The notes under the pieces are model-generated. The model saw nothing but the letters and a program-made list of their open reading frames with translations. It did not search any database and was not told where the DNA came from. The position numbers and the translations under genes are program-made. Source: Antedon mediterranea (lineage: Eukaryota; Echinodermata; Crinoidea; Comatulida; Antedonidae). Taken from it: DNA of 64,000 bases. Shown one piece after another: positions 21,611 to 63,575 of this stretch. Position 1 is the first letter of the stretch; every line of letters starts with the position of its first letter. The DNA is taken from positions 20,809,001 to 20,873,000 of the forward strand of contig NC_092680.1 of NCBI RefSeq assembly GCF_964355755.1. The letters are read 5' to 3'.

Positions 21611-22251
21611 TGATTATAACAATTTATGAACATCAAACATGCTAGGCTACCTATATTTCAGTTGTTTTAGGCCTAGCCTCTGGCGAAAGTGTGAGATGCG
21701 ATCTCAGAGCAGCATGGCGCAAATGTCAACATTAACAAACGCCCTCATCGCTAAAAGATCATTCTATAAATAATAACCAGGCCAGAGAGATGTAAAAAGC
21801 CGAATAAAATAATTGATATAATACATACAGTATTAATTTGTCTTCATTTTCTTTATTTTCAAAATCAGTATTGGTGATATCATTATCCAACTCAAGTTCG
21901 TTAATTCAAATGTACGTTATTCAATTTTTCTGACATAATTAAAAGACAAGACAAATCTCAATTTACATAAACTGTCAAATATAGATTTCAAAAGAGTGTT
22001 GTTGCACTTGAGTTGTGCCACAAATATATTATCTCAAGCTGATAATGATTTTCTAAATTGAATTTTGTTTTAATCTATTTTATTTTTACCATGTATCATA
22101 AATTATGATCCGTCAATGCCAGGATTTAAAAGAAAGATGGTGTTATAATTTTTGAAGGGAAAACACCGGGCAAATAGGACTGTCTCTGAAGTAAAATGGC
22201 TCCTATGAATAGCAGTGTCGTTGAAAAGCGCATTTTTGTTTCAATCTTAAA

Positions 22252-37622: not shown

Positions 37623-40600
37623 ATGGGATATTGTAGATTAATTGGAAATACAGCAGTTTTACTACAAATTATATGTTACACAATAAATGCACAGAATTCA
37701 GGTAGGGGTTTGGACATTATTATCAGTAGGCCTACTACTATTTTTTAAGATCGCGAAGAGCAGATGTGGTATGTAATTTAAGTGCTATTACGCATTGTGA
37801 CTGGATCTAGTTTGTGACTGAATATTTATCGCGGAATATCCAAAGAAATTTCCATATACATCTACTATTCATTGGTTATTTTCTATTACTGAATACTTCG
37901 ATATACTACATTTATTATTCTTGTTTCTGTTACAATTTCAATTTAATGGAATCACTTGAGTAACAGTGGCACACATTAGACAATACCTAACGGTGCATCC
38001 AAAGCAAAATTAAAAAGAAAAAAGAAAAGAAATCGTCATGCAAATTAATATTCCTAACATACCGATCTGATTGATACAGTATACAATATTCAAAGTTGGT
38101 ATCTTGTGAGGGAAGGAATAATTTGGTCGAACCTTAAACTTTATCCTAGTTTAATAATGTGTATAGTTAAAGTTTTGTATTTACAGAAACTATACTTTTA
38201 GTTTGAAAATTAAAGAAAATTAACTATACAAAATGCTCGGTACTGTTCACAGAGCCTTCAGTATGCGCAATATTCTAAAAAAACGTACTTTGTAGTGTTT
38301 CGAAATTGGATTTCTTGATAAATTAAAATAAACACTTTAAAATGAACATACTGTAAAATATACATTGCGAAAATATAAAGGTGTACTGTACTGTAGGTAT
38401 AATCATGATGGCGCCTTGTCAATGACACACTGTAAGAATAATATTGTAGATTACAGTATAGTTGTGTTGAGACACAAACACAACACTTCAATCTGTCTAT
38501 TCATTTTATTTCAACAATTTCTATATAATTTGACAGCATTTTAATAAAATGTTGATGAGCTGTGTTGTACTGTCTAGTACGGTATTGTTTTGACAGTGAT
38601 CACTCCTATTGTTGTATCAAAATCTATAATATTGATTGCACAAAGATGGTTATGTTTCGGAAATGTAATCAAATAAAGCTTTATGCATTTGACAACACAT
38701 TAGAGAATTGGTACTATACAAACACCTGTAATGTAAAGAAAAAACAACCTTACCGTAATGGAGATAGTATTAAATAAATTATGTAAAAATAGCTATAACT
38801 ACTGTTTTAAATATTCGAGGTTACACTTAAATCGAGTGGCTATTCTCAGAGTTTAGATTTTAAAAAATGATTTACAGTTTCCAACTATAAATAATATTTT
38901 CAATATTTCTTTAGTGTAGGCATTCGATTTTTGGTTGCTTTGTGTGAGTTTAACTAGGAGAAGAAGTACTACAGTACTGTACATTGCCAATGTTAACACA
39001 GCAGTAGTATCACTCTTCTAGTATATGTTTTTCATGAATTTACTGTATCTCTTAAATGATTCTCTATCACATTCCTATGGTGCAATAAAACAAAAGATTA
39101 TTGAAGTTAAAGTATTTCTGAATATTGTCAAAATATTGCTTCCTTAGTTATCAAAGGTATAGTCATATGCAAAGGTATTTTGTAACAATCGGCTTGATGA
39201 ACCGTAAAATATTTCTTATAATGATAATAAATAATCCTGTACATGAACTGAAGCGTGAGTATCTAATCAGAACTAGAATTCTATATTCGCCATTTTCAAC
39301 TCAACAATGTACGTTACTGTAACTGAATATCAAACCTGAAATAGTGGTTGATAGAATATCACAGTATGCCTACACAATTACAGTAATACAATTCACCAAT
39401 ACTGTCGTTTGAAAGCAAAGTATTGCTATTTATTGAGCTATGTTATCCTACTTATTTTATGTTCAACAAAGAAAAAAAAACAATTCTTTCGAACCGTTAT
39501 GTTATTACCAGAATTCTATAGTTAAGGCAGTCACACTAAAGATTTCTAACATAACATTTACTATTGATACTACATCTACTACTGTATATAGTTTTTTATA
39601 TATATATTAATAGTAACACTTGACTTTTTAAAAACCAAACACTTATTAGTACAGCAGGCTACATATACGAATTGTATAGTTCTGTAATACATACGATATT
39701 ACACTATAGTATAGTATACCTGTACTGTACATAATAATAGTGACAGCTTTACGCATTTTATAGTGCTAAAAATCGATAATTCATAACTCAATAACGCATT
39801 TTAATTTGCCAATATCCGTTTGTATTTATAATAATCCGTTCTAATAGGATATATCCAATGGTCTACAATTGTTTACTGATTACTGAACTTAAGCATTCTT
39901 CCTTCTGCGATTACAAATTTTGATTATTTTTTAACTTGTTTGAATTCCAAGTAAGGAAAGTAAGTCCAAATCCGTACTGTAAATTCTATTAGCTTATCAA
40001 TAATCGCACTAAATCCTGATTTTCATAGACTAGAATACTAGCTATAAGTTTAACAAGTTTAACAAGTATTCTATATATACTGTAGGCCCTAATATAAAAT
40101 ATCAAATATTTTTACTAATTATTTTCCTTGTAGTTTTTCACAATGCATAATTAATAGAACAAAGAAAATATTGTGCTGGTCATCAAATGTTAATATGATT
40201 TTCTAAAAGTGATAAGGGAAGCTCTGTCTACACTATTAAACTAGTTTGACAAAACAATTTGATGTGTCGAATGATGGTAGTGATATGCACAGATATGCTA
40301 GTGATATGACATCCTCATGTCCATATATAGGGACATCACATTTTTTTGTCACATAAAGTTTGAGCTTTAGAAATAGCACGTTCTGTGTCGGTGTCAGATT
40401 TTTGGATAGTCCGTTTTTAAAATTTAGTCTGTTCTCGCCCGTAACTTGTCATGTTTTGTATTTTCAGGTGACGTGCGGTTACAAGGGGGATCTAACATAT
40501 TCGAAGGAAGAATTGAAATTTATGACACCACTGAGTGGAAAACAGTATGTTTAGATAATTTCAATATTGTCGACGCTGATGTGGTATGTCAACAGTTATT

Positions 40601-43600
40601 TAAACGTAAGTACACATTATCTTGATAAATCAATACGTTTGAATAGTGCAATTTTTACTATTCACTGGCAGGTAGGAAATATTAATGCTGATATCTTTAT
40701 TTATGTTCATTAAAGTGTTCTTTTAAAATTGACAATACACACAATATATTATGTAATTATACTTAATTGTGTCCTCACTCCTGAAGACAATCAAAGCATA
40801 TTGATCGAAACGTCGAGAAACTCAACAGGTTTTTTTTCATAACTAATACACATACCGCAAACTTTATATCAACATTTTATTTCGCCATGCAAACCTTCAA
40901 AACCTTCAAACAATATATACTTAATTATTTACAGAAAGTGCAATATCAGTAGTAGATGGGTCACAGTTTGGGGCTGGGACCAGTGATGATTCACTAACTG
41001 GAGTAGCATGTTCAGACACTGATACAACGTTACTAGATTGTTCTAATTCTGGGTATTCAAATGCATGTAGTAACCATGCAGGTGCCAACTGCCAAGGTAA
41101 GTTATTTGTAATATTTTAAATAAATGTTTATAATTCAATTCAACTTTGATTTCAAACAAACAGTCAATATGATACAGAACATATACATTAATAAAACAAA
41201 AGGAAAGGTATTTTATTCTGTAACAAACATCACCAAATGATGAAGGAGGGTGAACCAAGAATTATCCCTTTATTTGTAATAGTTTCTGGAATCCATCAAT
41301 ATATTTCATATACAATATATTATACAATATATATATATATACATACAATAATATGTACAATGTGTATATGTATACAATTGTTTTGCTTGTCATTCTTCGT
41401 TCGAGAAAACCAAATATTCATAAAGGCGGAGAAAACATGGTATTTATTTATTATTTCTTATGACTCTAGACCGACTGATCTAACAAATTAGATGAATATA
41501 TATTGTGTAATAAAGTTTGGAACTTTGTTTTTTTGTTGTTTAGTTTTTGGGTACTTTGGCTGCTATAGCAATGCAGTGGTGATGCCATTACAGGGACCAT
41601 TACTTACTGGCAAGGTAGACTTGACAATATCTAGTTGTATCGAATCTTGTCGAACTCGTGGTTACGTGTATGCTGGACCAATAAATGGGGACAGATGCTC
41701 GTGTGGAAACACAATTGAAACACCCCATGTCGAGGAAAATTTAGTTTCAGAAATATTTTGCAATGTAGCTTGTTCAGGCGACAGTACACAGATCTGTGGT
41801 GGAGACGTTTACACTAGTATTTATACATGTAAGTCCTACTTTTCTACAATTTACATTAATTTTGTTATTTTTATGTTTTATACTGTACATTATAATTATA
41901 GATTGAAAACATGTATGGATATGTACTTCTACTGTTTACAAAACCAGTTAACAATTTTAATTATCAAGTAACAATTCAAATCTTTCCCAATTGCAGCTTC
42001 AATCGGACAATTTGATGGTACATACACCCAACCGGAAGGCTTTGTATATTCTCCAAACTTTCCAAGTTCCTATTTAGGAGAATCAACTTCATGGATGCTA
42101 ACTTTTGAAAATCCAACAATCACTACGGTAACAATTTGGATGTTTGACGTATCAGAGAATGCTACCTTGGTTCTTACGTCTGGTACTGGAACCCGACAGT
42201 CGTATTCAGGCTCAGAATCACTAATTCTTCCACACGTCTGGACTACAGACCTGACGTCATCACTTGAAATCAGAATTGGAAGTACTACAACGCCAGAAAT
42301 TAGTAACGGATTCGTTATTACATATGAAGGTTAGTTGTTTGACAGTTAAGATTATATTAGAAGATGTAAAATATTGATGACATTTTATTTAGTTAAATTA
42401 AATGTTTCCTGTCGAAGACAAGGGTCAATTTCTTCTTGGTAAAACGAAGAGTGTTATTCCATTCTTTGCTGGTCAAAGACTGTTTTTCAGCGACAGATTT
42501 TCTTTTATTTTTACAATGTTTCTAATATCAACTGAAATTCTTCCCATCCATTTTCCAAAAATGTAATAAATGTGGATGGTCGATAACATTTATTTATAAA
42601 AAACAATTTGTATCGTGTTTATGCAAAAATACAAAACAGTACGATAATAAGAGTGGAGTTGTGGCTTGGTGGTTGTGATGCTTGGCTACCACTACAAAGG
42701 TTTTGGGTTCAAGTCCCGTCACATGTCAGAATTTTTTCTAAGGACAAAATTACAACTCCACTCACAAAGACTTGTAATAAGATTTTGTTTATGTAGAGCA
42801 TCTTGTGTATATTTTTGTCTTGTGAACCTTTGAGGGTCCCTAATGATCAGCAATTGCTGGATGGATCACCCTCAATAAATATGGTATAAAAAAAATGGCT
42901 GAGAATACTATTTATATTGTTGTCCTGTATAATCTAGCTGTCACTGGAAGCTGTGGTGGTGATTTTGGAGGTACCTTGGGTTACATTGCATCTCCTGATT
43001 ACCCTGAAGACGTACCTTCTTCGAGCGCGACCTGCACATATACCATTACAGCTCCGGACAATTACATCATCATAGTGGAACTGTTACAAAGATCACTGCC
43101 TAGTGGAAGTTCATTGGTACTGGTTGATGATGGTGTGATTAATAGTGTAACAACTATTGGAACGTTTGCTCCATCAACTACCAATATGGTTTCTGTTACT
43201 TTCGTTCCTAGTGCCTTATCGCCGTCTTCATTTCTTATTAAATACACAGGTTAGTTAAACTATTTACTCTTCATATAGTAAACGCAGTTAGTCTATAAAG
43301 TTAATAAGTTGCCATAATAGTATCTTTCCTTTTGCATTGGTAACAAAGGACATGAGCCACGGGAATTAAAATAGTATTACTGTATAAACACGGAGTTATT
43401 TCACTTTTCATAGATTACACCATGTTATGGTGTAATGGTATAACCAGTTCTAATGTGCTATACTGTTATCCAGTCATATTATTATAAATGAATGCTACCA
43501 CTTTAAGGAATGGCTGTAAAATAATGTCACATGTTCCTATAAAAACTATTATATAATACCTGTAGATGTATTGTAATTTCTAATATTATTTCATTGATAT

Positions 43601-46600
43601 TGTGTATTGCTTTCTTTTATTTGATTTTTTTTTTGTAGTTGCATATCGTAGATATTTGTGACGCGTTACAAACATTCCTGTTTGGCTTAATAGTTTAATA
43701 AAAATATATCTTTCTAAAGCTTCTCAAGGTCCGTGTGACGCGTTTCCAACCATCCCGTTTGGCACGCTAGATCCAAGTGTAACTGGTACAGTGTATCGGC
43801 CTACAACGGTGTCATTTACTTGTGATGATGGCTACTCGTCGTCAGACAGTTCTATAACCTGCATGGAAGACGGCTCATGGACGTCAGCAGAATGTATAGG
43901 TAATAATGGAACGTGTTTAGAATGTGATTGTTTTGATTTAACATTAAATTATTAAAATCTTGCACAAAATTAGGGTAGATTTAAGTCATCGTACTTTGAT
44001 GGATGACTTTAACTAGCTACTCTAGAATATTAGCATATTCTTTGAAAATCATGAGTAGGCCTACAGTAAAACCAATTTTATTATCATTACATGTAACAAT
44101 AATATTTCAATTACACGTGCACTCGCACTCATTCTTTGTTGTTTGCTGTATTTTTTATAAAACGATGTTGTTTCAGATTGTTAGTAATAATGTAGGCCTA
44201 ACCATGTTCTTAGTTTTAGAATAGAGTGTAAAAAGTCAATTTTTGTTGTGTAACATATTGTACTGTATGTCTGTCTTTCTGTTGCACTTAGTTAATTGTG
44301 ATGCGTTGCCTACTATTATGTCTGGTTCCGTTATTACGGGTGGCGATACTGTATTTAATCCAGGTGAACAACTAAACGTGAGTTGTGACGACGGATACAC
44401 AGCATCTGTATCCATGATCACATGTTTGAACGACAATTCTTGGACGACAGTACAATGTATTGGTATGTTGGAATACTATAAAACTGCTTAAGCCATCTCA
44501 AATGGCGTAGACAATACTATCCAGTAAGCTTGGTTCCCACTCGAGACCAAGTTAGTTCGACAGTTCGAATGATACATCGTCTGTGATTTATCAGATCACG
44601 TACGTTGCGCGTACGCCCTTGTGTTGCGTCTCTAGCGATCAGCACATGCTGAGATAGTATGAACCTCAATCTATTAATAATATACCCATACATGTATTGT
44701 TGCACGTTCCCGATACCATTTTCTGCTTAGTTAGATTAGTACTGCATGTTGATGTACTGTTCACACTTGTGTTGTCCTGATATTGTGACGTGTGTCTTAC
44801 TATATTTGTTTTTGTCTGTCTTTCTGTTGCACTTAGTTAATTGTGATGCGTTGCCTACTATTATGTCTGGTTCTGTTATTACGGGTGGCGATACTGTATT
44901 TAATCCGGGTGCTCAACTAAACGTGAGTTGTGACAACGGATACACAGCATCTGCATCTATGATCACGTGTTTGAACGACAATTCTTGGACGACAGTACAA
45001 TGTATTGGTACAGGAGTACATTAAACTGAAACTTCTCTATTCAAATAATTTATTAATAATTATTATTATTATTTAAAAAAAATGTATTCTAAATGCAATT
45101 GGTCTGTTAATTTATATTTATACTATTGTATGCTGTTTTTTAAATTCTATAATCATAATGTTTCTTATACCAACTGAAGTTCTCTCCAAACAATTTGAAA
45201 ATGTAATAAATGTGGATGGTCGATCGATAACATTTATTTATATTCAGGTTATCGTGTTTATCAGAGCATAATCATTTATTATTCAATTACTGGTAGTAAT
45301 TTGGTAACATTGTTGACACTAGACCGTCTCCTAGTTATAGTTGTGTTCACAAGTATTTTATTATACATTGCAAAGCATTTTATTAGTTAATATTTTCACG
45401 ATGAGTATTCCTTTTGTAACAGTACAATTATATCTTTATGCATGTCTTTGTAGAAGATCCACCAACTACAACAGAAAGTACAACTACAGCCATAGATGCC
45501 ACTACCCAAGCTGTCACCACCGCTCCAGATGTAAGCACTGCTGCTCCAGATGTAAGCACTGCTTCTCCAGATGTAAGCACTGCTGCTCCAGATGCAAGCA
45601 CCGGTACTCCTGATGCAAGGACTGTTGCTCCTGATGCAGGAACTACTAGTCCTGATGTAGACACAGTTACAACAAAGACTATAACTACGGATTCACCGTC
45701 TACTACTGCAGCTGGTAACCAACCAACTGAAGACGCAGATAGTACGACAGAAGGCTCAACAACAGTGAAGTCCACAAACGGATCAGAACAAAGTCAGTTT
45801 TGCTAATTTCGACAGCATGTCTCATTTATAGAAACAATGCTTGACTGTACTTAACCATTTATAGCCTGCTGGTAAAATTTCTAAGCAAACTGGTCACTTA
45901 GCAATACTTATATATATTCAACATTTAATACTGAAGAAAGTTTCCATTATCACATAATTTTACTATGTAATTAGCATACAACTGTCTACACAACACACAC
46001 AAGAAAGATGTTTAATATTTTTACTCAAATTAATTTAGAAGATTTTCGTTTTAGTATCGTGCCGCATAAAACAATGTTATAACTAATTGCGTTTTTAAAT
46101 TTTGTTTTAGCTTCAGATTTGTGTCGAGTCAGCCGAGATCCCATAATGCAAAGCTTAGATACTGTAGAATCTGCTAATATTTTAGCACTAAATGTTGGTA
46201 ACCCGTTAGATTGTGAAGGATATTTGACCGGTATAGAGATCTTCAGTATAGACACATCAACGGTTACCATCAGTGTACTAAGGGTATTTGATTCAGCTAT
46301 TTTTCAAAAAAATAATAGGCTTAGAATTTACTAAATACATGGTTTGTTTTTTAAATGTAGGTATTTAAAACCATACAATAAGCATTTAATTGGTTTATTA
46401 GTTTTTAGAAACGAATAATTACCAGCTGATTGGACGATTTGACGTTATTGGTGTGACATCTGATGTAGTGAAACACTCATTGCTTACGGATGAATATATT
46501 CGATTTGAAAGCGGTGATATGATAGCAACGAGCTCCAGAACATCTTCACCATTGACTTATTCAACTGATGACGATTCGGTAGATTATATGATATGGAATA

Positions 46601-48207
46601 TCACAGGAAATGACGTCTTTCACACTACAGAAGTTGGAAATGTAATCAGGTTGACAAGTACCGACGACAGACCAAAGAGAACTTACTCATGGGCGGTTTT
46701 CATTACAGGTAGGTATTTTGGTATAACGCATGCGCAAAACAAAACGCAACAATTACTTATGTTTGACTAATCGGAACTAGAGGTTGAATTGAACATTTTG
46801 CGCATGCTCATATATTTCTACGCTGAATAACATTTAGACCTGATGCTACGAATTTTAGGGTCATGTTTTGAAATTGATGAAGGTCGTACTATAACAACTA
46901 CTATGTTGTAAAAATATAAATAATTTGATCGATTGTGTGATACCTTCATGTTCATGTATTCATGCGTATAGGCACGATAATAGAATAGCATAGATTTGCT
47001 TTATAATTACAAATTTGTCATGTATCAGCATTGAAATATAATTATTTTTAAAATAACATTAAATAATTTTTCTAACAGCTAATCTGACGACATGCAGTAA
47101 GCCAGACATCGACAATGCTATGATAACACCAGATATGGAAGTGTATCAATATCAGGACACGATTGAAGTTGAATGTAACGATGGCTACACTCCAGATAGC
47201 GTGACGTCACTACAATGCCTCGCGAGTGGTTCCTTTGAGAGCTTTGAATGCACTGGTAAAGTTATTTTTCTTCTTCTGCTTCTTCTCCTCCCCAGTATAT
47301 GCTTTACTAGTAGACCGTTCTTTCACAGTTCAGTTGAAGCTTTAAAATGAAAGTGTAACGTATAATTGGAATGCCATTGTTGTTGCAATACGCACATGTC
47401 TCATAAATAGATTTTGTCAAAAGCAACAAATAACAACTTTTTTTGTTTTATTTCAGTAAAAGATCGACACACTTTTTTCATTATATTCGGTAAGATAATA
47501 ATATTAAGTTCAAATAGAATGTTATTATCAATTTACAATATTCAAAACTATCACACTAAGGTAAAACTAAAGTACAATTAACCAATTAATAAAAAAAAAC
47601 ACTTTTCCTTGACAATATTTTTTTTTTTTTTTTATCCATATCAGGTATTGTTTGTGTTGGTGTGTTTGGTCTTCTTACAGTAATTTCTTTAATAATGATG
47701 GTATGTGTAAAAGAGAAAGCACCTGTAAGGGCAAAACAAAAGAGAAGGTAAGAATCGTAGGCTACTCTAAATGTGTTTTTATAATATGTTAAATGTAATG
47801 TATCATTGTATTTACTGTGTTAGAGGTACGGTACTTCTAATACTACACGACTACCACTGTTTAAAAAAATTGTTTCTTACAGTACATTTGTATCAAATGG
47901 TAGCAGTCGATCAGACAATTCGCAGAGAATGCTGATACCGATAGAATACGACAACGCGCGAGGTAAAGGAGTTGCTGTCAGTAATCCAATACCAATAGCT
48001 GATGAAAATCCCGCGCAATTAAACGATCTTCAGTATCCACCGATCGACTATCCTTTGGATGACGTAAACGAGGCCATCCAGGCGATCGATGAAGCAGTGC
48101 TGGGGTTTGACGTTGATAACTTTTCCCTCGCTGAATCTGGCCCAATGGATAACAGGTCTGGAGGGGACTCGACTAGGCATCACGTCACATTTTCAGATAG
48201 GAGATGA
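37623..48207 (+). CDS. Type I membrane receptor SRCR-WSC-CUB-CUB-sushi(3)-mucin-unknown domain-sushi-TM
   Basis: Sixteen exons, phases consistent: 37623-37701, 40468-40605, 40935-41096, 41544-41828, 41997-42329, 42938-43249, 43720-43899, 44292-44462, 44837-45007, 45454-45792, 46111-46283, 46402-46708, 47079-47255, 47457-47489, 47645-47747, 47883-48207; 1095 residues. Order: signal peptide (1 to about 22); SRCR (27-126, start GDVRLQGGSNIFEGRIEI); WSC (127-221, YFGCYSNA, CSCGN, CSGD, ICGG); CUB (222-332, without the usual cysteines); CUB (333-436); three sushi/CCP (437-496, 497-553, 554-610); Thr/Pro mucin stalk with APDVST heptads (611-723); a two-exon domain I cannot name (724-883); sushi (884-942); TM (about 949-976); 110-residue cytoplasmic tail. 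Likely carbohydrate or pathogen recognition or adhesion; ligand unknown. The acceptor of exon 12 (46402) was chosen because it is the one that keeps frame. Confidence 0.9.
40220..40369. mobile_element. Palindromic MITE, copy 1 (intron 1 of the first receptor)
   Basis: Starts AGCTCTGTCTACACTA and ends with a truncated complement (AAAGTTTGAGCTTTAG). The interior has GATATGACATC and ACATCACATTTTTTTGTCAC, shared with the other four copies in the window. Confidence 0.75.
42525..42630. repeat. Dispersed ~100-bp repeat, partner at 45170-45265
   Basis: Shares ATGTAATAAATGTGGATGG, TCGATAACATTTATTTATA and TATCGTGTTTAT with 45170-45265, in the same orientation, within introns of the same receptor gene. 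Family unknown. Confidence 0.7.
42650..42893 (+). mobile_element. tRNA-derived SINE in intron 5 of the first receptor
   Basis: The head has a pol III A-box (TGGCTTGGTGG) and B-box (GGGTTCAAGTCC) 43 bases apart. The body is followed by a conserved-looking tail with GATCAGCAATTGCTGGATGG and CACCCTCAATAAATATGG, ending in an A-run. Sense relative to the gene, ending about 45 bases before exon 6 (42938). Confidence 0.8.
44262..45007. repeat. Tandem duplication of a sushi-domain exon
   Basis: Exon 44292-44462 and exon 44837-45007 (171 bp each) are nearly identical, including the 30 bases of intron before each (TCTGTCTTTCTGTTGCACTTAG). The encoded modules differ at three residues (Glu/Ala, Asp/Asn, Val/Ala). 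The unit shift is 545 bp. Confidence 0.95.
45170..45265. repeat. Dispersed ~100-bp repeat, partner at 42525-42630
   Basis: Same core words as the copy in intron 5. It lies in the intron before the mucin exon. Confidence 0.7.
45530..45660 (+). repeat. 21-bp coding repeat in the mucin stalk
   Basis: Six or seven copies of a 21-bp unit (CCAGATGTAAGCACTGCTGC form) encode APDVST-type heptads in exon 45454-45792. They are Ser/Thr/Pro-rich and probably O-glycosylated. This type of repeat is prone to length polymorphism. Confidence 0.9.
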
Positions 48208-50287
48208 GATGAATTTTAATTAAATTATTATAACATGTATAAAGATTGTTTTAAAACACATTAGAAAGCTTTTGATTTGTGATGACGTAGAACGCAAGAA
48301 CTGCAGTTAAATCATTGTGCGCATGTGCAGATTCTATAGAATCTATTTTACTAATTACAAAATGTGGGTAGGTCATATGTCGATAGCTTTCTATTAACTG
48401 TGTCATTTGTATACCCATCGACTAATTAAGAAAGTAAATTTTATCAAACAATATTACATTATTGTAATGAATAATTATTTTGGTATAATAAAAGAATACA
48501 AATTTTAAAAAGCTTTATTTGTATTACAATAACGCATTTTTAGGAAATGTAGTAATTATTGTATTATAATGAAAACATAGACTTATAAGATTAAACTAAG
48601 ACTTAAAGAAAAATAGGTAGTTAGACAAGTTTGGCCTACGTAGGCCTACTGTTATCTATTAAACTTTCCTATGAGGTAAACTCTAAATAATAAAATTCAA
48701 AATCAATTTAATTGCTATGTTTTGTATACTCAGAATAGATCAAAAGTACTAACAACAACGTTTCGCAAACATTCAGTTTCATTGTACTGGATAAACAAAA
48801 AAGAAAATTTCTCCTTTAAAATATTAGAATCCAAATAAAATATTTTTAGATTGCCTTAAGTAGTAAGTAAATTATCAAATAAACAAGGAACTTTGAATCA
48901 TACATTCTCGTTCTAGCCATGAATATTGACCTACTTATAATAAATTAATGGCATACAATGTTGTGTATTATATATTAATTAATATTTAATCAGAATTGTG
49001 TATCTTATTTAACAATGTACGTGTTGTATTGGAATGCAAAGGTCCATTTGATACAGCTGATAATAAGACATATACCGATGATGACACACAATACATAATA
49101 TAAATTATACCGTATTTGGTATGTAGGCCCTAACTAGTAATTCCAAGGCACCAATGTCTTCCCTTTCTATATAAGTGATACGTGTCTTGTCTGATATAGG
49201 CCTACTGATAAACAACATTTTATTTAATATACTGGTGACTATAATAATAACATAACATAATTCTATAGGCCTATATCACTATATTATACTACAGGAAAAA
49301 TCTGTAAAATTGTCTAAACATCAATAATAGGCCTATTTGTTTGAGTTATATTTTAACTTTTGTTTGTTTCTTTATTTCCATTCACAAAAAAAAAAAAAAT
49401 GTTAAGACATATTTTTTAACTTTTACATTTTACACAACGACGTTATTTTAGTGCTGCGTTATAAATCTCAACCTGGGGTTTTGTAAATAGTAATAGTTGG
49501 TATATAATAGTATGTTTAATCTTATAACCAGTATTTAGATTGACTTTAATAAAGGAATTGTATTTTTTCATTTTCTTGTTTCTCTTTTAATGCTCTTTGT
49601 TTTTTTGGGATGAAGGTAAAATGAATATGATAATAAAATGATAAAAATTATATATTTAGGCCAACCTTTTCAAACAAAAAACATTAAAAAAAACCACACA
49701 ATAAAATTATATATGAGCAACAATGACTGGATCTAAATGGAGATAAAGAAAAGAAAAAAAAAGAAGTAAAACAGTCAGAAAGAGTGAGAGAGATTATAAT
49801 GTGTGAAAAACATAGCTGATTGGCCAGACGAAACTGTTTGGACATATACGTTATTTTCACTGGTTTATACCTGAATGAATTTTTATCGCAGAAATTATAT
49901 TATGTGGGAAATTTGTATGGATAACTATAACTTTGATACACCGTTCATACGTTTCCATAGATAGTATGCAGATGAGGCGGAATTTCCATTTATATAGCCG
50001 CCCTCTGGAATTTATATCTTAACCAAGTTTCGAATTTGCACCTAATTGAACTTTATTGTCAAATTCTTTTGAATAACTGTAATCCACAAACAAAACCTCT
50101 CCTACCTGAAGTATTTACAAAAACCCATTGTACCGTGGTTTGAAGTTTACACAAATAACCCCATTCAAGCTATTACAAATAAATATTGATTGTTGTTAAA
50201 GTTGAAACCTACATGTATCGCCATATTGGGTCTTACCAAGAACAGCTTGTAAACGTAATTTTAACGTGAAAGTACGTGTACCTCGTG
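48208..50287. other. Intergenic region between the first and second receptor genes
   Basis: AT-rich, with the 3' untranslated region of the first receptor to about 48500, then scattered TAGGCCTA words. No gene is seen. The promoter of the second receptor should lie in the right part; no clear core motif is visible. Confidence 0.6.
48485..48492 (+). terminator. Poly(A) signal of the first receptor gene
   Basis: AATAAA about 280 bases after the stop codon, the first good signal downstream on the plus strand. Confidence 0.5.
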
Positions 50288-53200
50288 ATGCATACTCTAC
50301 TAGTTATAACCACTGCCTTATTCTGTGTTCATTCTGGTGCAGCAAATATAATAACGAATTATGGAGGTTGGTGTCTTGAAGTTGTTTTTAGGAAGAAATA
50401 GTTAGTACTATACTAGTACACCTACATTATACTGTTTGTTTTACACTACAATAGGCCTACTGTAACTACATTCGGTAGTTACAGAATAGCAAAAGCTTAA
50501 CTTGAATTTTAAATTAGTTTTAGCTTTATAACATGTAGTAAAGACGTAGTACAAGAATAGGCCTACTGGTTCAACCAGTACACTTTGACTGCCAAACACG
50601 AAGATCTTCGTGTTTGGAAACACAACGCTTGACTGCCAAACAAAAATTAAACTGAGTGTTTGTTTTTAGTTGGTATTGGTATTAAACTGAAATACAACAT
50701 AAAATTATGACGTGATTACAGGGCTGTCTATTTTTATAAATTGTAATCACCAGGTTTCTAACGCCACAACCGCGGCACAGTATGTCTGTCAGTATATAAC
50801 ATGAGGTATTCAATAACAAGTTTGGATTATATTGTGTTATTCCTATAACTTGTCAAGAAAATAAAAATGTCAGAAATTCAGAAAACTATACTGGTAAAAA
50901 GGATGTTAGTTTTTAAGGATGCTTTAAAAGCATCCTTAAAATTGGCAACTTAACTTTACCGCATTATTGGTAATATTTTTAAAATAAATTGAAATATTAA
51001 TATGTATTGTCTCTTATGAACAGAGGGGGATATACGATTAGCTGACGGTCCGAATCCGTTTCAAGGGCGTCTTGAGATATATCATGACGAATCATGGGGA
51101 ACGGTTTGTTCAGATGGTTGGAACGAAAATAACGCACAAGTGGTATGCAGGCAGTTAGGTAATAAAATGACTCACATTGCTATTTTGAATTTTGCATTTT
51201 ATAATGATAGCAAATCATTCTTGGTAGTTTCTATGATTTAAAATCTGTCTTTCGAGACTTCATTATGTTTGGCAGACTTTTTATTTTTTCCAACAACATT
51301 TGAAAGTTTTCAAAACATAATAGAAAATGTTTAAATGATAAATAAGGTAAATAATACAGACTAATTTTTTAGGAATAAAAAAAGAAAACTATTAGAAATG
51401 GTAACTCTTATTAAAGAAATTATTTTAGTATAAGAATAATCATGATCCACACTCATATCTACTGAAGCTCTGTCTACACTATCGAACTAGTTTGATGTAC
51501 CCAAATATGTCAGTGACATGCCTAAATATGGTAGTGACATGCCTAAATATGTTATTGACATGCCTAAATATGGTAGTGATATGACATCGTCATGTCTATA
51601 TATGGGTACATCACAATTTGTGTCACATAAACTTGATAGTTTAGACATAGCTTAAAAAGTATTTTGACCAAAGCGTGAATGCTTTGGCAATTCTTAAATA
51701 ATTAGTATAATTATTGGCTTAATTTCTATATATATTTTTTCAGGATTTCTAGGTGGAGTTCTTCTAGATAACGTTGTTAACAAATATCCCGTCCCTTCAA
51801 ACATTAGTATACACTTATCGAATGTGGTATGTGATGGGTTAGAACCCGCATTGACTGAATGTCAATATAACGGCTGGAGTGTGAATGGGTGTAACCACGA
51901 ACAAGATGTGAACGTTTACTGTAAAGGTAACGTATTCTCCCCCTTCAGAAATAGTATGAAATTCTTCATTGGTAAACTGTGATGAAAAATGTTTAGCTTT
52001 AAATGTTTTATTTTTAATGGGTTGGTTTTTAATTATCTTTTAAAAACCAATTATTATTGATTTTCTTGTACGCTAAACTTAGTTATGGTTTTTATTTATT
52101 TACTTTTTTGCAATAAAACTACAGTTTTCTAAAAGAATAAAAAAAAATATAATACTAGCGACGGAATTTATTTAAACGAACATGATACGTGTTTTCTTCT
52201 TTCTTTCTTTCCTCTATGATGAAAACAGAATATGAACAAAAAAACATAACACATCTACTATTCTTTCCACATTAGCATCATAATGGAAGCCTACACAGAT
52301 GAAATGGAATAGTTAAAATATGAGTCTACAATGAAACTTTTTATTACAATCTTTATATAACATGATATACAATTTGTATTAAGCTCTGTCTACACTATCA
52401 AACTTGTATATGTGCCCATATGGACACGATGATGTCTACCATATTTGAACATTTTTTCAAACTAGTGTGATAGTGTGTGTAGACAGAGCTTTAGACAGTA
52501 AGATAAGAAAAGGTACCAAACGATAGTAACTTAGTTTGACATTTTTAGTCCACAGTTACAGAGGTTGTTTTGTCAGTGAATTTCCAAACTACGCGTTGAC
52601 TGGTAAAGAGGTTGGAATGACCGATCCATTGAAATTAGAAAGGTGTATGGAATTGTGTGATGGTTATGACTTCATGGGTGTGGAAGGAGGTGATTCATGT
52701 TTTTGTGGAAATGTTGCGGATGATTACACAAGGTATGGAGAAGTGGTCGCGAGTGAATGCACCCTACCGTGTGAGGGCGATAGTAAGCAGTTCTGTGGAG
52801 GAATAAGTCGTATAGCGATTTATGAGCGTAAGTGTCATGAGTTACCACTCGTATCCCTTCTAACAATTGAAATAAATTGTTTGAAAAATGAAAGAAAGAC
52901 AACTAAATATTAGTTTTATTTAGATTAACGGTAAATAAACAGTAAACGCAGCAATAGAAAGGAAAACTCAAAGGAAAAACAATTAAATCACCTAATACAT
53001 TTGAGAATGTCCCCTTAAATGTCGTTTGACACTGTACCATAACACACGGTAAATAAGATAAAATGAACCGCCATTTTATTTATCGAAACCTGATCAATAA
53101 TATCTTTTTGTTGGCTGCTACTCATTTTCCCGCCATTGCATTTATCGAAACTTGATCAATAATATCTTTTTGTAGGCTGCTACTCATTTTCCCGCCATTT

Positions 53201-55957
53201 TATTTATTGAAACTTGATCAATAATATCTTTTTGTAGGCTGCTACTCATTTTCCCGCCATTTATTTATCGAAACTTGATCAATAATATCTTTTTGTAGGC
53301 TGCTACTCATTTTCCGTTTTATAATGTTTGGAGAATTTTAATACTTATTCTTTCTGTTTGTAATTTTCACTATTTTGATTTTAAAAAGTGAATACATATA
53401 TGCTTTATCTTATTTGAATTAAAGTAATAAATTAAGTAATAATTACATATCTTACATTTTAGGCAATTGTTTACCAACAAGTGCTTCCAGTGGTGTATTA
53501 CTTTCACCTAATTTTCCTGGGCAATACAGTATGGATGACCAATGTGAGCAGCAGATAAATTTATCCATGAATGCCAAAACGCATGTGACCTTTCACCTTT
53601 TTGCGCTCACGGGTGATGACGCGTTAACACTTTCTGACGAGTTAGGAGATATAGTAACGTATACTGCGTCAAACCCACCCCTAATGCGAAGCGTTATTGA
53701 AATAGACACGCTAAATGTTGAATTTGTTTCTTCATCAACGTCAAGTGGTGGAGATGGTTATGTCATAACATACAGTGGTAAAGTATTATCGTCCTGAATC
53801 TTGATTCTCATTTAGGCCGCAACGCAAGGACTCATTCGCAACGTCCGGTCGTTTATGATTCGGGCAATTTCATGCCTTGTGCCAACATTATTTTGTCAAA
53901 GCTTTGTCTACACTATCAAACTAGTTTGACAAACAAAAGTGTGAGGTGGCCAAATATGGAAGTGATATGACATCAAATTTTTGTGGCACATGAAGTTTGA
54001 TAGTGTAGACAGAGCTTTAGTCACCATTTTAATGAAAGTATGGATGCCTATAATGTTCATTAAAAAAAAAAAGATATATCCTATCGTTTTCAAACTGAAT
54101 ATCTATTTTGAATAATATAAACAAACATCATACATTTGTTTGTTCATAAATATTTATTTGTATGTATACAGGTGTTTTAAAGTGTCCGAGTTCTATAAAA
54201 TTTGCAAACGGTTCTCTACTGATGGAAGACTTACAGTTTTATTATGAAGGCGATACGGCACTTGTTATGTGTGACGATGGCTTTGTCCCTCTTCAAGAAG
54301 ACTTAGTCTGTACTGAAGATGGCGAGTGGTTTCCAGTTCCTTCTTGTGTAGAAGGTAAACATACACTATAATTAATTAATAATTAATAACTTATAGCCTC
54401 ATTTTTTAAATCACAACAAAGGGTGCAGGTTTAGGGTATCAGTATCACGTTGAAGACGTTGCTTCTAACCTATAACAGCTACTGTAGTTACTCCGCCCGA
54501 ATGCTCGGAGATATTACGAGGGCAATCGAATGTGTTTATTTTTATTCTAACAGATGGTTTTACTGTCTCTTATAATTTATTTATTTATTTTTGTTTATTT
54601 GTTGTTTTACTTTATATTTAGTTACGTAAGGATCCCAGTTAGACATGGTTTTCTTCTGCTCCTATTCATCATGTGCTTGTATTATTTGTTTACCTATAAT
54701 TTTAGTTTTACTTTTATATTATATTCCTTACTTCTTGATGAATTATGCTATTTTGTGTTTTCAGTAGCAAATAAGTTATTAAATGTCATATCTGGATTAA
54801 GTACCTGTTATACTCAAAATATATTTACTTCCCGTATCGCTTAATAAAAACCCTATCAAAAATGTTGGCAAATTAACTACCCTATATTATATTCATTTGC
54901 CTAAGGAGCATTATTCTTATCCATTTACCTTGCTATGGTCACGTACTATTTTAATGATATCTTTTGATTAAAACTTTCGTAATCAATGTTAATAAATGAT
55001 TACAATTATTAATTTCAGTAATTCCAGGAGATCTTCCAGATGAACCAGACAACGGTAGTGGAAACTTTGAACCAATTCTTCTAATGTGTAAGTTAATGAT
55101 ACGGTTATGATGTTACTGATTATGATTTCACTGATTATGATGTCACTGATTATGATAGGGTGGTATTAAGATTAACAACCATGTATTTTGAAAATAAATA
55201 TGATGAAGATGATGATTATAATGATGATGACGGTTATGGTGATAGTAGTGTTTGTGGAATGATAGCTTACTGTAGGAAGATGAACCAGAAAATAATGGTA
55301 GGTGGTTATGATGATAATGACGTCATATCCTTCAATAACGCCAAAGATGACCCAGATATAGTTTAAAATATACTTTATATACATTTTAGATAACAAGTTT
55401 TGATAGAAAGTTGGAGTGTCTTGGCTGACAAATTCTATTTTTAATGTTGTTTTGTTGTTAGGTGTTGTATTAGTGGCCATCCTTGGAATTGCATTTTTTA
55501 TGGTGTTTATGGGAGTCATATGTTCAGGGAAAAGACAATCCAGGTATCAAAATAAGTATTAATAATGATAACTATTAATTACATTGTATGTTGACGATAA
55601 TGGTGAAAACAATTACACCAGTGAAGGCGTAATAGTTAAATAAAAGCTATCGATAGTATTGGTGGTTAATGTGAAACTGTTAACCATGATTTTATATTAG
55701 AATAGGAATGGGCTAGGTTTATTGAATAATCTAGAAACACATTACTAACTTGTACTGATTTTTCCCCAAACCATAGTGACAAAACACCACTCGAAAATGT
55801 TGATACGCCATCTGGATCCGACAACAGTGATTCGTTAGTGGACCGGGATATGTTTGATGGTACCCAAGGCAACGATAATCCACAGGTTGAAATAGAAGAT
55901 GATGACGCTGTAAGCACAACTGAAGAAGAAGGACAATATTTATCAAATATCTATTAA
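50288..55957 (+). CDS. Type I membrane receptor SRCR-WSC-CUB-sushi-TM (paralogue of the preceding gene)
   Basis: Nine exons: 50288-50366, 51024-51158, 51744-51926, 52549-52827, 53463-53777, 54172-54354, 55019-55087, 55462-55543, 55777-55957; 501 residues. Signal peptide (1 to about 19); SRCR (27-132, [39 protein letters not shown], then VVCDGLE and LTECQ); WSC (133-225, [22 protein letters not shown]); CUB (226-330); sushi (331-391); acidic 22-residue stalk (392-414); TM (415-435); 60-residue acidic tail ending [11 protein letters not shown], with two tyrosines that could be phosphorylated. The first coding exon is 79 nt and ends in phase 1, exactly as in the gene at 37623, and the SRCR domain is likewise split over two exons. 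It lacks the second CUB, extra sushi, mucin and unknown domains of its neighbour. Confidence 0.93.
50592..50617. repeat. 26-bp perfect palindrome
   Basis: CCAAACACGAAG directly followed by ATCTTCGTGTTTGG: perfect dyad in intron 1 of the second receptor. CTTGACTGCCAAACA recurs just downstream. Another near-perfect palindrome (AAGGATGCTTT/AAAGCATCCTT) lies at 50911-50941. Confidence 0.85.
51465..51653. mobile_element. Palindromic MITE, copy 2 (with internal expansion)
   Basis: Same AAGCTCTGTCTACACTAT start as the other copies; the right end is decayed (GATAGTTTAGACATAGCTT). The internal CCTAAATATG-GTAGTGACATG segment is repeated three to four times, making it the longest copy. Confidence 0.8.
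52381..52492. mobile_element. Palindromic MITE, copy 3
   Basis: Ends AAGCTCTGTCTACACTATCA and its complement around 52460-52492; a full foldback of about 112 bp, located just upstream of the WSC exon of the second receptor. Confidence 0.85.
53071..53318. repeat. 62-bp minisatellite, 4 copies
   Basis: The unit contains CGCCATTTTATTTATCGAAA, CTTGATCAATAATATC and GTAGGCTGCTACTCATTTTC. It lies in the intron between the WSC and CUB exons of the second receptor and is nearly identical between copies. Confidence 0.93.
53898..54018. mobile_element. Palindromic MITE, copy 4
   Basis: AAAGCTTTGTCTACACTATC at the left pairs with GATAGTGTAGACAGAGCTTT at the right; about 121 bp, the cleanest foldback of the five, in the intron before the sushi exon. 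Confidence 0.9.
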
Positions 55958-58045
55958 AAATTAACTTAGGGCCTACATGTTTTTTGTAAACTTAAAAGTT
56001 TGAATTACACAATGCATGTGTGTCTCTGAACTGTACACTGTCTTCTTCAGGTCAAACTTTGTCTACACTATCAAACTAGTTTAACAAAAAAAGTGTGATG
56101 TGCCCAAATATGGTAACGATATGCTTTAAATATGGTAGTGATATAACATCATCATGTCCATGAGCACATCATATTTTTTTTGACAGAGCTTTAGATTTAA
56201 TCTTGTCCTGTGAAGTATGTCAGTTTGATGTTGTATGTTTGTACAGTTCTTTTAACACATCACAAACATGGAATAGTTTTAATTAATTGAACTATCTTTC
56301 TGTTGAAACTAAATGTATTTAAGCAGTACGAGTTTTACATAAATAGTATTTTAGTAACAGTTAGTATTTCTACATAATTTATAAATAACTATAGATAGTT
56401 TATTATAGAAATATTATTTCTTTATATATTTATGCATTTTTATAGATTCAGCTTAAACATTTATTTTTTTTTATAATAATTAAATGAACAACTAAATATT
56501 TTCAATTCTCTAGGATATAGCTTATTTATTTTAAAGTCCGCCCTCTATATCGTCACACAGTTGAGTTGTGTCTCGGTTTTAATTAGCGTTGAAAATAATT
56601 AAAAACTGCATATCTATCATCTGATAACATTGTAGTGTAAGTTACAAAACATTGACGGCATATTCAAACAGTTATAGATTGCTTTGATATGTAATAGAAA
56701 ATTGATGCTGAAAAACGTTTTTTCTTGATTTAAAATCGATGGAATTTATTATGATTTGGTGGTGTTACAGTGTCTGTTTTAAATAGTAAGTATAATAAAC
56801 GTTATCCAATTCATAGGATGGTTCTATTCAACTATACGCCATCTTCGGGTAATTAAACAATTTCTACAAAATATAGTATAACATTTTATCAATCATTGCC
56901 TCCTTTTTATGACTGTTATCGTTCAAAAGAATGAACAAAATTAAAAAGGGAAAACAATCTTTATCTCCTTAAGGATAAAAACCCAAATAAATAGTTAGTT
57001 AAATCATGTTAGTATTTTCTTATTGTTGATTAAATTAAATATTATATACCAAATATTAGAAACTGAAAATGAAATTAAAATAGTTAACTTATTGCAAAAA
57101 AGGGACCAATATATATAAGTGGTATGACGTCATAATAGGGGAGTGGTAGCACAGAATATAGAATCTTTTTATCTTGATCTATATCATCATTGATACCATT
57201 ACGTCATCATCCAGCATAACTTGATCATCGTCAAATCGATTTACATCATAACGACTATCCAGATATTATGATTGTCATATTACTGTATTATACTATAATT
57301 CATCCTAATTATCTTTACCATATTTTGCTTTACGTCATAATTATCCTTTAAACCATTGTAAAAAAATACTCATAATTAAAATAATTTTCGCTTCGGGTTA
57401 ATATTTGATAAAATACATATTTCATTAACCCGAGTTGTGTTTTCGTTTTCTGTGATATGAATATATGTTTTATTATTAATTCAATCAAAATAATGCTATT
57501 TCCGTCCGCATGTGAACGGGGACTTTTCCTATTTTCTAATTATTACAGCTAATTGTTAAGCAGCTGTTGTCGTGTGAATGAGTCATTATAAAAACGTTTT
57601 ACTAAAAATGTGCGAGATCATTATTATCACGTAACAAACGGTTCATTTTATTAGCGCGAATGGGAGTGGTCACAGTGCACTTGGGCGAGAAAGGTGTTGA
57701 TTGTAAAGCAGTTAGGCTAACAATATCCGACTAACATGCTGCAAGTGTGAACAATAAAATGAGTATTATCCGCCCATGAACTCTATCGACCAATGTTGAG
57801 TACGACGTCGCTCATATAGATGCTTGAGAAAATACCGTCCTTTCTTATTCAAATATCAAGCAACAACAATACGTGTTGAACAATCTACCAACAGACCATG
57901 TAAAGGATTTGTAATCGCTTAATAGGTGAATGCGACCGACAAAAACCGTTAAGTTTCGAACGTATTAATTTTTCTTCTTAACCTCACAGCTGATTAAGAT
58001 ATTGTTGAAGAAACAGTCTAAAGAAGGGATGTTATTGTAGCTACG
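55958..58045. other. Intergenic region between the second and third receptor genes
   Basis: Contains the 3' untranslated region of the second receptor, MITE copy 5 (56056-56193) and otherwise AT-rich sequence. No gene is seen. The right end must hold the promoter of the third gene; no core motif can be assigned. Confidence 0.6.
56056..56193. mobile_element. Palindromic MITE, copy 5
   Basis: AACTTTGTCTACACTATCAA at the left, GACAGAGCTTTAG at the right, with the shared interior (GTGATGTGCCCAAATATGG). It lies about 100 bases after the second receptor's stop codon, so probably in its 3' untranslated region. Confidence 0.8.
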
Positions 58046-58115
58046 ATGGCTGATGTGTATCAGTTTAGCCTAGCATTGCTGTTACTATGTGTGTTACCAT
58101 CGGTCCAATCTCAAG
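58046..58115 (+). CDS. First coding exon (signal peptide) of a third secreted or membrane protein gene, rest outside window
   Basis: ATG at 58046 opens 23 codons plus one base ending in a CAAG/GTAAGA donor in phase 1. The peptide starts MADVYQFSLALLLL and ends CVLPSVQSQ, a textbook signal peptide. The phase and short length match the first exons of the two receptor genes upstream, in the same orientation, so a third paralogue is likely. No later exon is recognisable up to 64000, meaning intron 1 would exceed 5.8 kb. The link to the receptor family is inference. Confidence 0.7.
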
Positions 58116-59883: not shown

Positions 59884-61935
59884 TCCTAAACCATCAAGCC
59901 AGTTACTAATCACTCTGAATAAACCATCAAGCCAGTTACTAATCACTCTGAATAAACCATCAAGCCAGTTACTAATCACTCTGAATAAACCATCAAGCCA
60001 GTTACTAATCACTCTGAATAAACCATCAAGCTAGTTACTAATCACTCTGAATAAACCATCAAGCCAGTTACTAAGCACTCTGAATAAACCATCAAGCCAG
60101 TTACTAATCACTCTGAATAAACCATCAAGCTAGTTACTAATCACTCTGAATAAACCATCAAGCCAGTTACTAAGCACTCTGAATAAACCATCAAGCCAGT
60201 TACTAATCACTCTGAATAAACCATCAAGCCAGTTACTAATCACTCTGAATAAACCATCAAGCCAGTTACTAATCACTCTGAATAAACCATCAAGCCAGTT
60301 ACTAATCACTCTGAATAAACCATCAAGCCAGTTACTAATCACTCTGAATAAACCATCAAGCCAGTTACTAATCACTCTGAATAAACCATCAAGCCAGTTA
60401 CTAATCACTCTGAATAAACCATCAAGCCAGTTACTAATCACTCTGAATAAACCATCAAGCCAGTTACTAATCACTCTGAATAAACCATCAAGCCAGTTAC
60501 TAATCACTCTGAATAAACCATCAAGCCAGTTACTAATCACTCTGAATAAACCATCAAGCCAGTTACTAATCACTCTGAATAAACCATCAAGCCAGTTACT
60601 AATCACTCTGAATAAACCATCAAGCCAGTTACTAATCACTCTGAATAAACCATCAAGCCAGTTACTAATCACTCTGAATAAACCATCAAGCCAGTTACTA
60701 ATCACTCTGAATAAACCATCAAGCCAGTTACTAATCACTCTGAATAAACCATCAAGCCAGTTACTAATCACTCTGAATAAACCATCAAGCCAGTTACTAA
60801 TCACTCTGAATAAACCATCAAGCCAGTTACTAATCACTCTGAATAAACCATCAAGCCAGTTACTAATCACTCTGAATAAACCATCAAGCCAGTTACTAAT
60901 CACTCTGAATAAACCATCAAGCTAGTTACTAATCACTCTGAATAAACCATCAAGCCAGTTACTAATCACTCTGAATAAACCATCAAGCCAGTTACTAATC
61001 ACTCTGAATAAACCATCAAGCCAGTTACTAATCACTCTGAATAAACCATCAAGCCAGTTACTAATCACTCTGAATAAACCATCAAGCCAGTTACTAATCA
61101 CTCTGAATAAACCATCAAGCCAGTTACTAATCACTCTGAATAAACCATCAAGCCAGTTACTAATCACTCTGAATAAACCATCAAGCCAGTTACTAATCAC
61201 TCTGAATAAACCATCAAGCCAGTTACTAATCACTCTGAATAAACCATCAAGCCAGTTACTAATCACTCTGAATAAACCATCAAGCCAGTTACTAATCACT
61301 CTGAATAAACCATCAAGCCAGTTACTAATCACTCTGAATAAACCATCAAGCCAGTTACTAATCACTCTGAATAAACCATCAAGCCAGTTACTAATCACTC
61401 TGAATAAACCATCAAGCCAGTTACTAATCACTCTGAATAAACCATCAAGCCAGTTACTAATCACTCTGAATAAACCATCAAGCCAGTTACTAATCACTCT
61501 GAATAAACCATCAAGCCAGTTACTAATCACTCTGAATAAACCATCAAGCCAGTTACTAATCACTCTGAATAAACCATCAAGCCAGTTACTAATCACTCTG
61601 AATAAACCATCAAGCCAGTTACTAATCACTCTGAATAAACCATCAAGCCAGTTACTAATCACTCTGAATAAACCATCAAGCCAGTTACTAAGCACTCTGA
61701 ATAAACCATCAAGCCAGTTACTAAGCACTCTGAATAAACCATCAAGCCAGTTACTAATCACTCTGAATAAACCATCAAGCCAGTTACTAATCACTCTGAA
61801 TAAACCATCAAGCCAGTTACTAATCACTCTGAATAAACCATCAAGCCAGTTACTAAGCACTCTGAATAAACCATCAAGCCAGTTACTAATCACTCTGAAT
61901 AAACCATCAAGCCAGTTACTAATCACTCTGAATTA
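59884..61935. repeat. 33-bp satellite-like array, about 62 nearly identical copies
   Basis: The unit is 33 bp and includes AAACCATCAAGCCAGTTACT and AATCACTCTG. Only two variant bases are common (GCTAG for GCCAG, CTAAGC for CTAATC). Because 33 is a multiple of three, minus-strand open frames of 257 and 334 codons (ISNWLDGLFRV repeats) arise and are ended by the GCTAG variant; they are not genes. Every unit carries AATAAA on the plus strand, sense to the third receptor gene whose intron it appears to occupy. Confidence 0.98.
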
Positions 61936-62734: not shown

Positions 62735-63420
62735 GTACTGTATGTATTGTATACTGTCAATGGTGGAATGGAGGAATGCATATCGGTGGCCAGGGGTGCA
62801 TTATGTAGGCCTATAGAAAAACGGAACTATCCACTTTGTCTAGTATTCACACTATGAAGTCTTTGTTGTAACTGCGTGTTACTGTATGTATTCTGTCAAT
62901 GGTGGATCAAGGAATGTCATATCGGTGGCCAGGGGTGCATTATGTAGGCCTATAGAAAAACGGAACTATCCACTTTGTCTAGTATTCACACTATGAAGTC
63001 TTTGTTGTAACTGCGTGTTACTGTATGTATTCTGTCAATGGTGGATCAAGGAATGTCATATCGGTGGCCAGGGGTGCATTATGTAGGCCTATAGAAAAAC
63101 GGAACTATCCACTTTGTCTAGTATTCACACTATGAAGTCTTTGTTGTAACTGCGTGTTACTGTATGTATTCTGTCAATGGTGGATCAAGGAATGCATATC
63201 GGTGGCCAGGGGTGCATTATGTAGGCCTATAGAAAAACGGAACTATCCACTTTGTCTAGTATTCACACTATGAAGTCTTTGTTGTAACTGTGTGTTACTG
63301 TATGTATACTGTCAATGGTGGATCAAGAAATGTCATATCGGTGGCCAGGGGTGCATTATGTAGGCCTATAGAAAAACGGAACTATCCACTTTGTCTAGTA
63401 TTCACACTATGGATTCTTTG
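62735..63420. repeat. 139-bp tandem repeat, 5 copies
   Basis: The unit contains TCGGTGGCCAGGGGTGCATT, ATGTAGGCCTATAGAAAAAC and TCCACTTTGTCTAGTATTC. Spacing is 138-139 bp and copies are nearly identical. The last copy runs into the dispersed repeat at 63390-63575, which shares its TCTAGTATTCACACTATG end, so the array was built from the edge of that repeat. Confidence 0.95.
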
Positions 63421-63575
63421 TACTGCGTGACAAAAGCACTTCAATATACAAGTAACCCTGATCCTTTATTAATATACAATTTTACAGACTTTTGTAATGA
63501 TCCCAGACTAAACGTATTCGTATTTTATCAGTTAGAGGTACTGTCTAAAAAAAATGAAATATGTCTATGTAAAAA
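63390..63575. repeat. Dispersed repeat, partner at 59405-59610
   Basis: Right-hand copy of the repeat bracketing the arrays. A 74-codon open frame over it is not conserved in the left copy and is regarded as chance. Confidence 0.7.

Follow-up and report, generated by a model that had tools for sequence, protein, structure and literature searches.

The window, i.e., the whole stretch of 64,000 nucleotides of Antedon mediterranea DNA analysed here, holds two complete genes arranged head to tail, gene A and gene B; splice sites and the reading frame were followed by hand to build both models. Gene A (37623-48207, +) comprises 16 exons coding for 1095 aa, whereby every intron is of the GT-AG type, 13 of the 15 are in phase 1 and the longest reach up to 2.8 kb. 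Its predicted product possesses a signal peptide, an SRCR domain, a WSC domain, two CUB domains, sushi domains, a mucin stalk, an unnamed domain, a further sushi domain, one transmembrane segment and a tail. Exon 1 (37623..37701, +; 79 nt, phase 1) starts with an ATG, encodes the hydrophobic leader of the signal peptide and ends at a GT donor. The SRCR domain is encoded by exons 2-3 (40468-40605 and 40935-41096; span 40468..41096, +) with a phase-1 intron lying within it (Pfam SRCR, 1.1e-15), and is followed by the WSC domain in exon 4 (41544..41828, +; Pfam WSC, 1.8e-16), which corresponds to match G000:C11:20850552 of the genome WSC search. Exon 5 (41997..42329, +) encodes CUB-1, which is cysteine-free and collinear with the CUB domain of gene B, and exon 6 (42938..43249, +) encodes CUB-2 (Pfam CUB, 1.3e-6). 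Three sushi domains in exons 7-9 (43720-43899, 44292-44462 and 44837-45007; span 43720..45007, +) precede a Ser/Thr/Pro-rich, mucin-like stalk with 21-nt repeats in exon 10 (45454..45792, +), the unnamed domain of about 160 aa in exons 11-12 (46111-46283 and 46402-46708; span 46111..46708, +) and a fourth sushi domain in exon 13 (47079..47255, +), all four sushi stretches being recognized by Pfam (Sushi, 8.3e-35). According to the splice model, exons 14-16 (47457-47489, 47645-47747 and 47883-48207; span 47457..48207, +) encode the transmembrane segment and a 119-aa tail containing LQYPPI. The SRCR, WSC, CUB and sushi matches of gene A lie above the Pfam cut-off. Exons 8-9, the last two of the three consecutive sushi exons, are part of a 198-nt direct repeat of 96% identity which includes the sushi exon, and judged by this similarity they are a recent duplication.

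Gene B (50288-55957, +) starts 2.1 kb past gene A and comprises 9 exons coding for 501 aa, with GT-AG introns of which seven out of eight are in phase 1. A signal peptide, an SRCR, a WSC, a CUB and a sushi domain, one transmembrane segment and a tail are predicted for its product. Exon 1 (50288..50366, +) again comprises 79 nt, ends in phase 1 and encodes the signal peptide, while exons 2-3 (51024-51158 and 51744-51926; span 51024..51926, +) encode the SRCR domain with an intron after RQL (Pfam, 2.1e-27). The WSC domain is located in exon 4 (52549..52827, +; Pfam WSC, 4.6e-14), the CUB domain in exon 5 (53463..53777, +; Pfam CUB, 7.8e-5) and the sushi domain in exon 6 (54172..54354, +), the latter reaching 19.4 bits, just under the Pfam cut-off of 20.7, and matching a sushi domain of complement factor H. 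Exons 7-9 (55019-55087, 55462-55543 and 55777-55957; span 55019..55957, +) encode, by the gene model, a stalk, the transmembrane segment and an acidic tail of 65 aa. A 62-bp tandem repeat (53068-53315; 4 copies, 95%) lies in the intron separating the WSC exon from the CUB exon. A short dispersed element, which contains GCTCTGTCTACACTATCAAACTAGTTTGA and the reverse complement of this sequence, has copies at 52383, 53907, 53994 and elsewhere and probably is an inverted-repeat transposon of small size.

Thus the two head-to-tail genes, the mostly phase 1 junctions and the common SRCR-WSC-CUB-sushi order of the preliminary description were borne out, as was its long form: relative to gene B, gene A possesses a second CUB domain, three more sushi domains, the mucin stalk and the unnamed domain. 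The domain search that had been named beforehand as a possible refutation placed both SRCR and WSC above the Pfam cut-off in either gene, and with Pfam E-values of 1e-4 to 1e-35 for genes A and B chance is ruled out. The SRCR domains score 58.2 (gene A) and 95.8 bits (gene B) against a cut-off of 26.1 bits and possess six cysteines each, which is the group A pattern; group A is defined by six and group B by eight conserved cysteines (PMC10855680). The SRCR and CUB-1 domains of gene A are diverged. For CUB-1, the Pfam CUB model misses exon 5 by itself (E 0.15), but its predicted fold, which is of medium confidence (mean pLDDT 67), resembles CUB structures (best E 1.6e-4; best structural match Kremen, 5fwv, TM 0.76). 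This model supports the assignment of exon 5 as a CUB beta-sandwich, and the counterpart of the exon in a paralogue at C11:13.06 Mb passes the Pfam CUB cut-off.

A third gene begins at 58046..58115 (+), and its model, completed from the DNA to the right of the window, ends at 72575 in window numbering. Its 8 exons of continuous phase encode 769 aa, for which a signal peptide and a WSC domain are predicted, then four sushi domains and a mucin stalk and, past the transmembrane segment, a tail of 231 aa that contains SLYAKV. The 79-nt first exon had been described as common to all three genes, which holds for A and B, whereas that of the third gene measures 70 nt. Likewise, the expectation of a third gene of the same architecture was not confirmed: the SRCR profile scan, with E allowed up to 10, gave no match, and the CUB scan a single one at chance level (E 6.6), ruling the gene out as an SRCR-WSC member. 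It is followed at C11:20.91 Mb by a further WSC-sushi gene on the opposite strand, and hence the cluster is one of WSC receptors, two of which carry SRCR and CUB. Like genes A and B, the WSC-sushi receptors (the third gene and those at C11:20.91 Mb and C11:13.00 Mb) combine WSC and sushi domains in phase-1 exons, and the third gene additionally has a mucin stalk, a transmembrane segment and a transmembrane exon of class 1-2; unlike genes A and B, these receptors are devoid of SRCR and CUB and possess a longer WSC domain into which an additional cysteine-rich segment is inserted. Within its first intron, the third gene harbours a 33-bp minisatellite (59887-61933; 62 copies, 99%) causing spurious long open frames on both strands, and at 62743-63421 a tandem repeat of 139 bp (4.9 copies, 97%) is found.

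The preliminary description also regarded the joining of SRCR and WSC in one receptor as special, and to our knowledge no vertebrate architecture of that kind has been described. In invertebrates, however, the combination is already known: among the domains that accompany SRCR in sea urchin proteins, WSC ranks in the top five (36 WSC as compared to 38 sushi and 35 CUB), and it is also listed as an SRCR partner for the phoronid P. australis (PMC10855680). Genes A and B are therefore a good, if largely expected, example of the invertebrate receptor repertoire. With the S. purpuratus SRCR superfamily they share WSC, sushi and CUB as commonest partners, tandem genes, the group A cysteines and a large expansion; the accessible part of that publication gives domain counts for S. 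purpuratus, but neither an SRCR-WSC-CUB order nor a Kremen-like core (PMC10855680). At least 150 SRCR exons (408 candidates) were counted in the genome analysed here, which is consistent with an expanded SRCR repertoire. The intron splitting the SRCR domains of A and B sets them apart from the unsplit, single-exon domains which make up the best 150 of these 408 candidates, a list biased towards unsplit domains as half domains score lower.

The unnamed domain of gene A matches neither Pfam nor PDB entries, by sequence or by profile, whereby the PDB profile matches are at chance level only. At least ten other copies were identified in the genome (on C5, C7, C8 and C11), and a profile built without the gene A copy still recovers it at 3e-13, which indicates a real recurrent module. 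Being recurrent and outside both Pfam and PDB, it merits naming and structure determination. Elsewhere (L039-L043), other genes on C5 and C8 carry it as tandem pairs, in places adjoining what looks like a PAN-type domain; it is also found on C7.

The genome (354 Mb, 18 contigs) was searched for WSC domains, yielding 34 matches, and about 10 kb around most of these were examined with local profiles, for which A, B and human domains served as seeds; with only about 5 kb on each side being read, the resulting family count is a lower bound. The order SRCR-WSC-CUB was also identified at C6:23.12 Mb (Pfam SRCR 4.7e-22, WSC 8.6e-15, CUB 1.8e-10) and at C11:13.06 Mb, whereas SRCR-WSC without CUB was found within the roughly 10 kb scanned at each of C6:23.35 Mb and C6:24.10 Mb. 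In total, four genes at three genome places carry the triplet, next to two SRCR-WSC genes on C6, and Pfam agrees for all three C6 genes and for the CUB domain at C11:13.06 Mb. The C11:13.06 Mb gene encodes the second half of an SRCR domain, WSC, CUB, the unnamed domain and sushi in the same order as gene A; its first SRCR exon was not found in the DNA read. Reverse-transcriptase-like retroelement frames lie on the coding strand upstream of its second SRCR exon (L025:6270-8667). A and B align collinearly over 318-322 aa with 31% identity (2e-32), in one alignment spanning SRCR, WSC and the first CUB; the C6:23.12 Mb gene is 28% identical to both (1e-36 to 1e-40) and the C11:13.06 Mb gene 24-28%. 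The phase-1 intron splitting the SRCR domain resides after RQL (RQL-G) in all three C6 genes as well as in gene B, whereas in gene A it is found two codons further; it is thus common, to within two codons, to five of the six family genes, the sixth being that at C11:13.06 Mb. A WSC tree was also considered as a test of A-B sisterhood, but one WSC domain does not offer enough length for this: the family remained ungrouped on long branches, and forcing the six SRCR-WSC sequences into one clade gave an AU p of 0.06, a value that speaks neither for nor against such a clade.

Given the collinearity of A and B, the unlinked paralogues at 24-31% identity and the SRCR intron position common to five of six genes, the SRCR-WSC-CUB triplet is old and was inherited as a unit rather than freshly shuffled at this locus. 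Genes A and B were consequently assigned, with a probability of about 0.75, as diverged paralogues within an old receptor family whose members are of type I, span the membrane once and carry sushi behind an outer SRCR-WSC-CUB part. This bears on the view of the locus as a workshop in which modular recognition receptors arise by exon shuffling: the modularity and the phase-1 exons stand, the separate assembly of A and B from modules is improbable. Symmetrical phase-1 exons in both genes, the recent sushi exon duplication in A and the fact that A, B and the neighbouring WSC-sushi gene differ in their modules would suit an active workshop, yet the whole triplet being collinear in A, B and unlinked genes, together with the common SRCR intron position, renders it unlikely. 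Exon gain is visible only in the membrane-near part of gene A (added CUB, sushi, mucin exon and unnamed domain), with the 198-nt repeat as its newest trace. Less probable still is that A and B are mispredicted chimaeras joining exons of different neighbouring genes. Both models were derived from genomic DNA and gene A has introns of up to 2.8 kb, but the same domain order recurs at three genome places, and each model combines continuous phase and canonical splice sites with a single signal peptide and a single transmembrane segment.

Alternatively, the family could represent Kremen in this animal, as Wnt-tuning WSC-CUB co-receptors in which SRCR replaces the kringle. Like Kremen-1/2 (kringle-WSC-CUB-TM), A and B are predicted type I membrane proteins with WSC followed by CUB, and over its whole length the WSC-CUB part of gene B can be aligned with human Kremen-1 (1.8e-19). 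When the human Kremen-1 CUB was searched against the whole genome, the C6:23.12 Mb gene was the best match (44 bits; next CUB 34), and its CUB, searched back, gave 41.5 bits for Kremen, whereas no single cubilin CUB exceeded 21, making the Kremen-1 and C6:23.12 Mb domains reciprocal best CUB matches in the sets searched; with the Kremen-1 WSC, gene B is level with the best match. These values make it plausible that the WSC-CUB half is related to Kremen, and Kremen-1 is its nearest solved relative, as Kremen is its nearest vertebrate one. Moreover, the genome scan, which an intron-split WSC could escape, found no kringle-WSC-CUB gene. Kringle-WSC genes at C3:9.1 Mb were considered as true Kremen and rejected, as in the 10 kb read there (L029) the kringle is accompanied by a partial WSC only, CUB being absent. 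Nevertheless, Pfam finds no kringle in A or B, none of the 76 genome kringle matches lies near A, B or their paralogues, and so the kringle-WSC-CUB order is absent, while the Dkk interface of Kremen consists of kringle and WSC and Wnt antagonism needs the whole triplet (PMC5014086). The CUB calcium ligands D263, D266, D306 and N309, located on the LRP6-facing side of Kremen (PMC5014086), are mostly lost, gene B keeping about one and the C6:23.12 Mb gene about none in alignments read by eye. By sequence, the CUB domains of A and B show no special closeness to Kremen, their WSC resides in a single exon, whereas a phase-0 intron is reported inside a frog kremen WSC (PMC3927609), and sushi, mucin and unnamed domains are added. 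Without a kringle and with most LRP6-facing calcium ligands lost, filing A and B as Kremen is not justified, and a Kremen counterpart is improbable. Somewhat better placed, though tentative, is the idea that the SRCR-WSC-CUB receptors and Kremen go back to a common membrane receptor with WSC and CUB, which came to carry either SRCR or a kringle by a swap of its N-terminal domain. If true, a Wnt co-receptor of vertebrates would be the sister of a family of invertebrate recognition receptors, and the WSC-CUB link makes the invertebrate origin of Kremen testable. Next to this, the analysis yields correct models for two receptors and shows SRCR-WSC-CUB to be an inherited unit with several paralogues.

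The sequence itself shows what genes A and B can encode, in which order their domains stand, that they belong to the receptor family described above and how their products lie in the membrane, the N-terminus being secreted and the modules extracellular, followed by a single span and a short tail. Starfish SRCR proteins occur on coelomocytes and coelomic epithelium (PMC13409769), and by analogy with such echinoderm receptors A and B most likely serve as pattern-recognition or adhesion receptors. They would be placed on coelomocytes or epithelia, where the SRCR tip and its neighbouring modules may bind microbial or self glycans and proteins, while the sushi and mucin parts would keep this tip off the membrane and the tail may mediate uptake or weak tyrosine-based signalling. 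Diversity would come from duplication and divergence of the inherited triplet, accompanied by membrane-near exon gain. The gene A tail contains one ITIM-like match, LQYPPI, which is near chance for three tyrosines, and a scan of the gene B tail for known motifs found none. The tail of the SRCR-WSC gene at C6:24.10 Mb (L028:7026-7637) is rich in tyrosine motifs, with YTKL and YAHI about 14 residues apart, an ITAM-like arrangement of slightly too long spacing.

Elsewhere in the window, long open frames of a short repeat, open on both strands (4367-6579), probably represent a satellite-like array and no gene. By eye, a single-exon frame of 530 aa (17762-19351) resembles a RING-finger and NHL-repeat (TRIM-type) protein, and frames at 7860-8138 (-) and 21203-21613 (-) resemble an SNF2-family helicase exon and a small methyltransferase, respectively.
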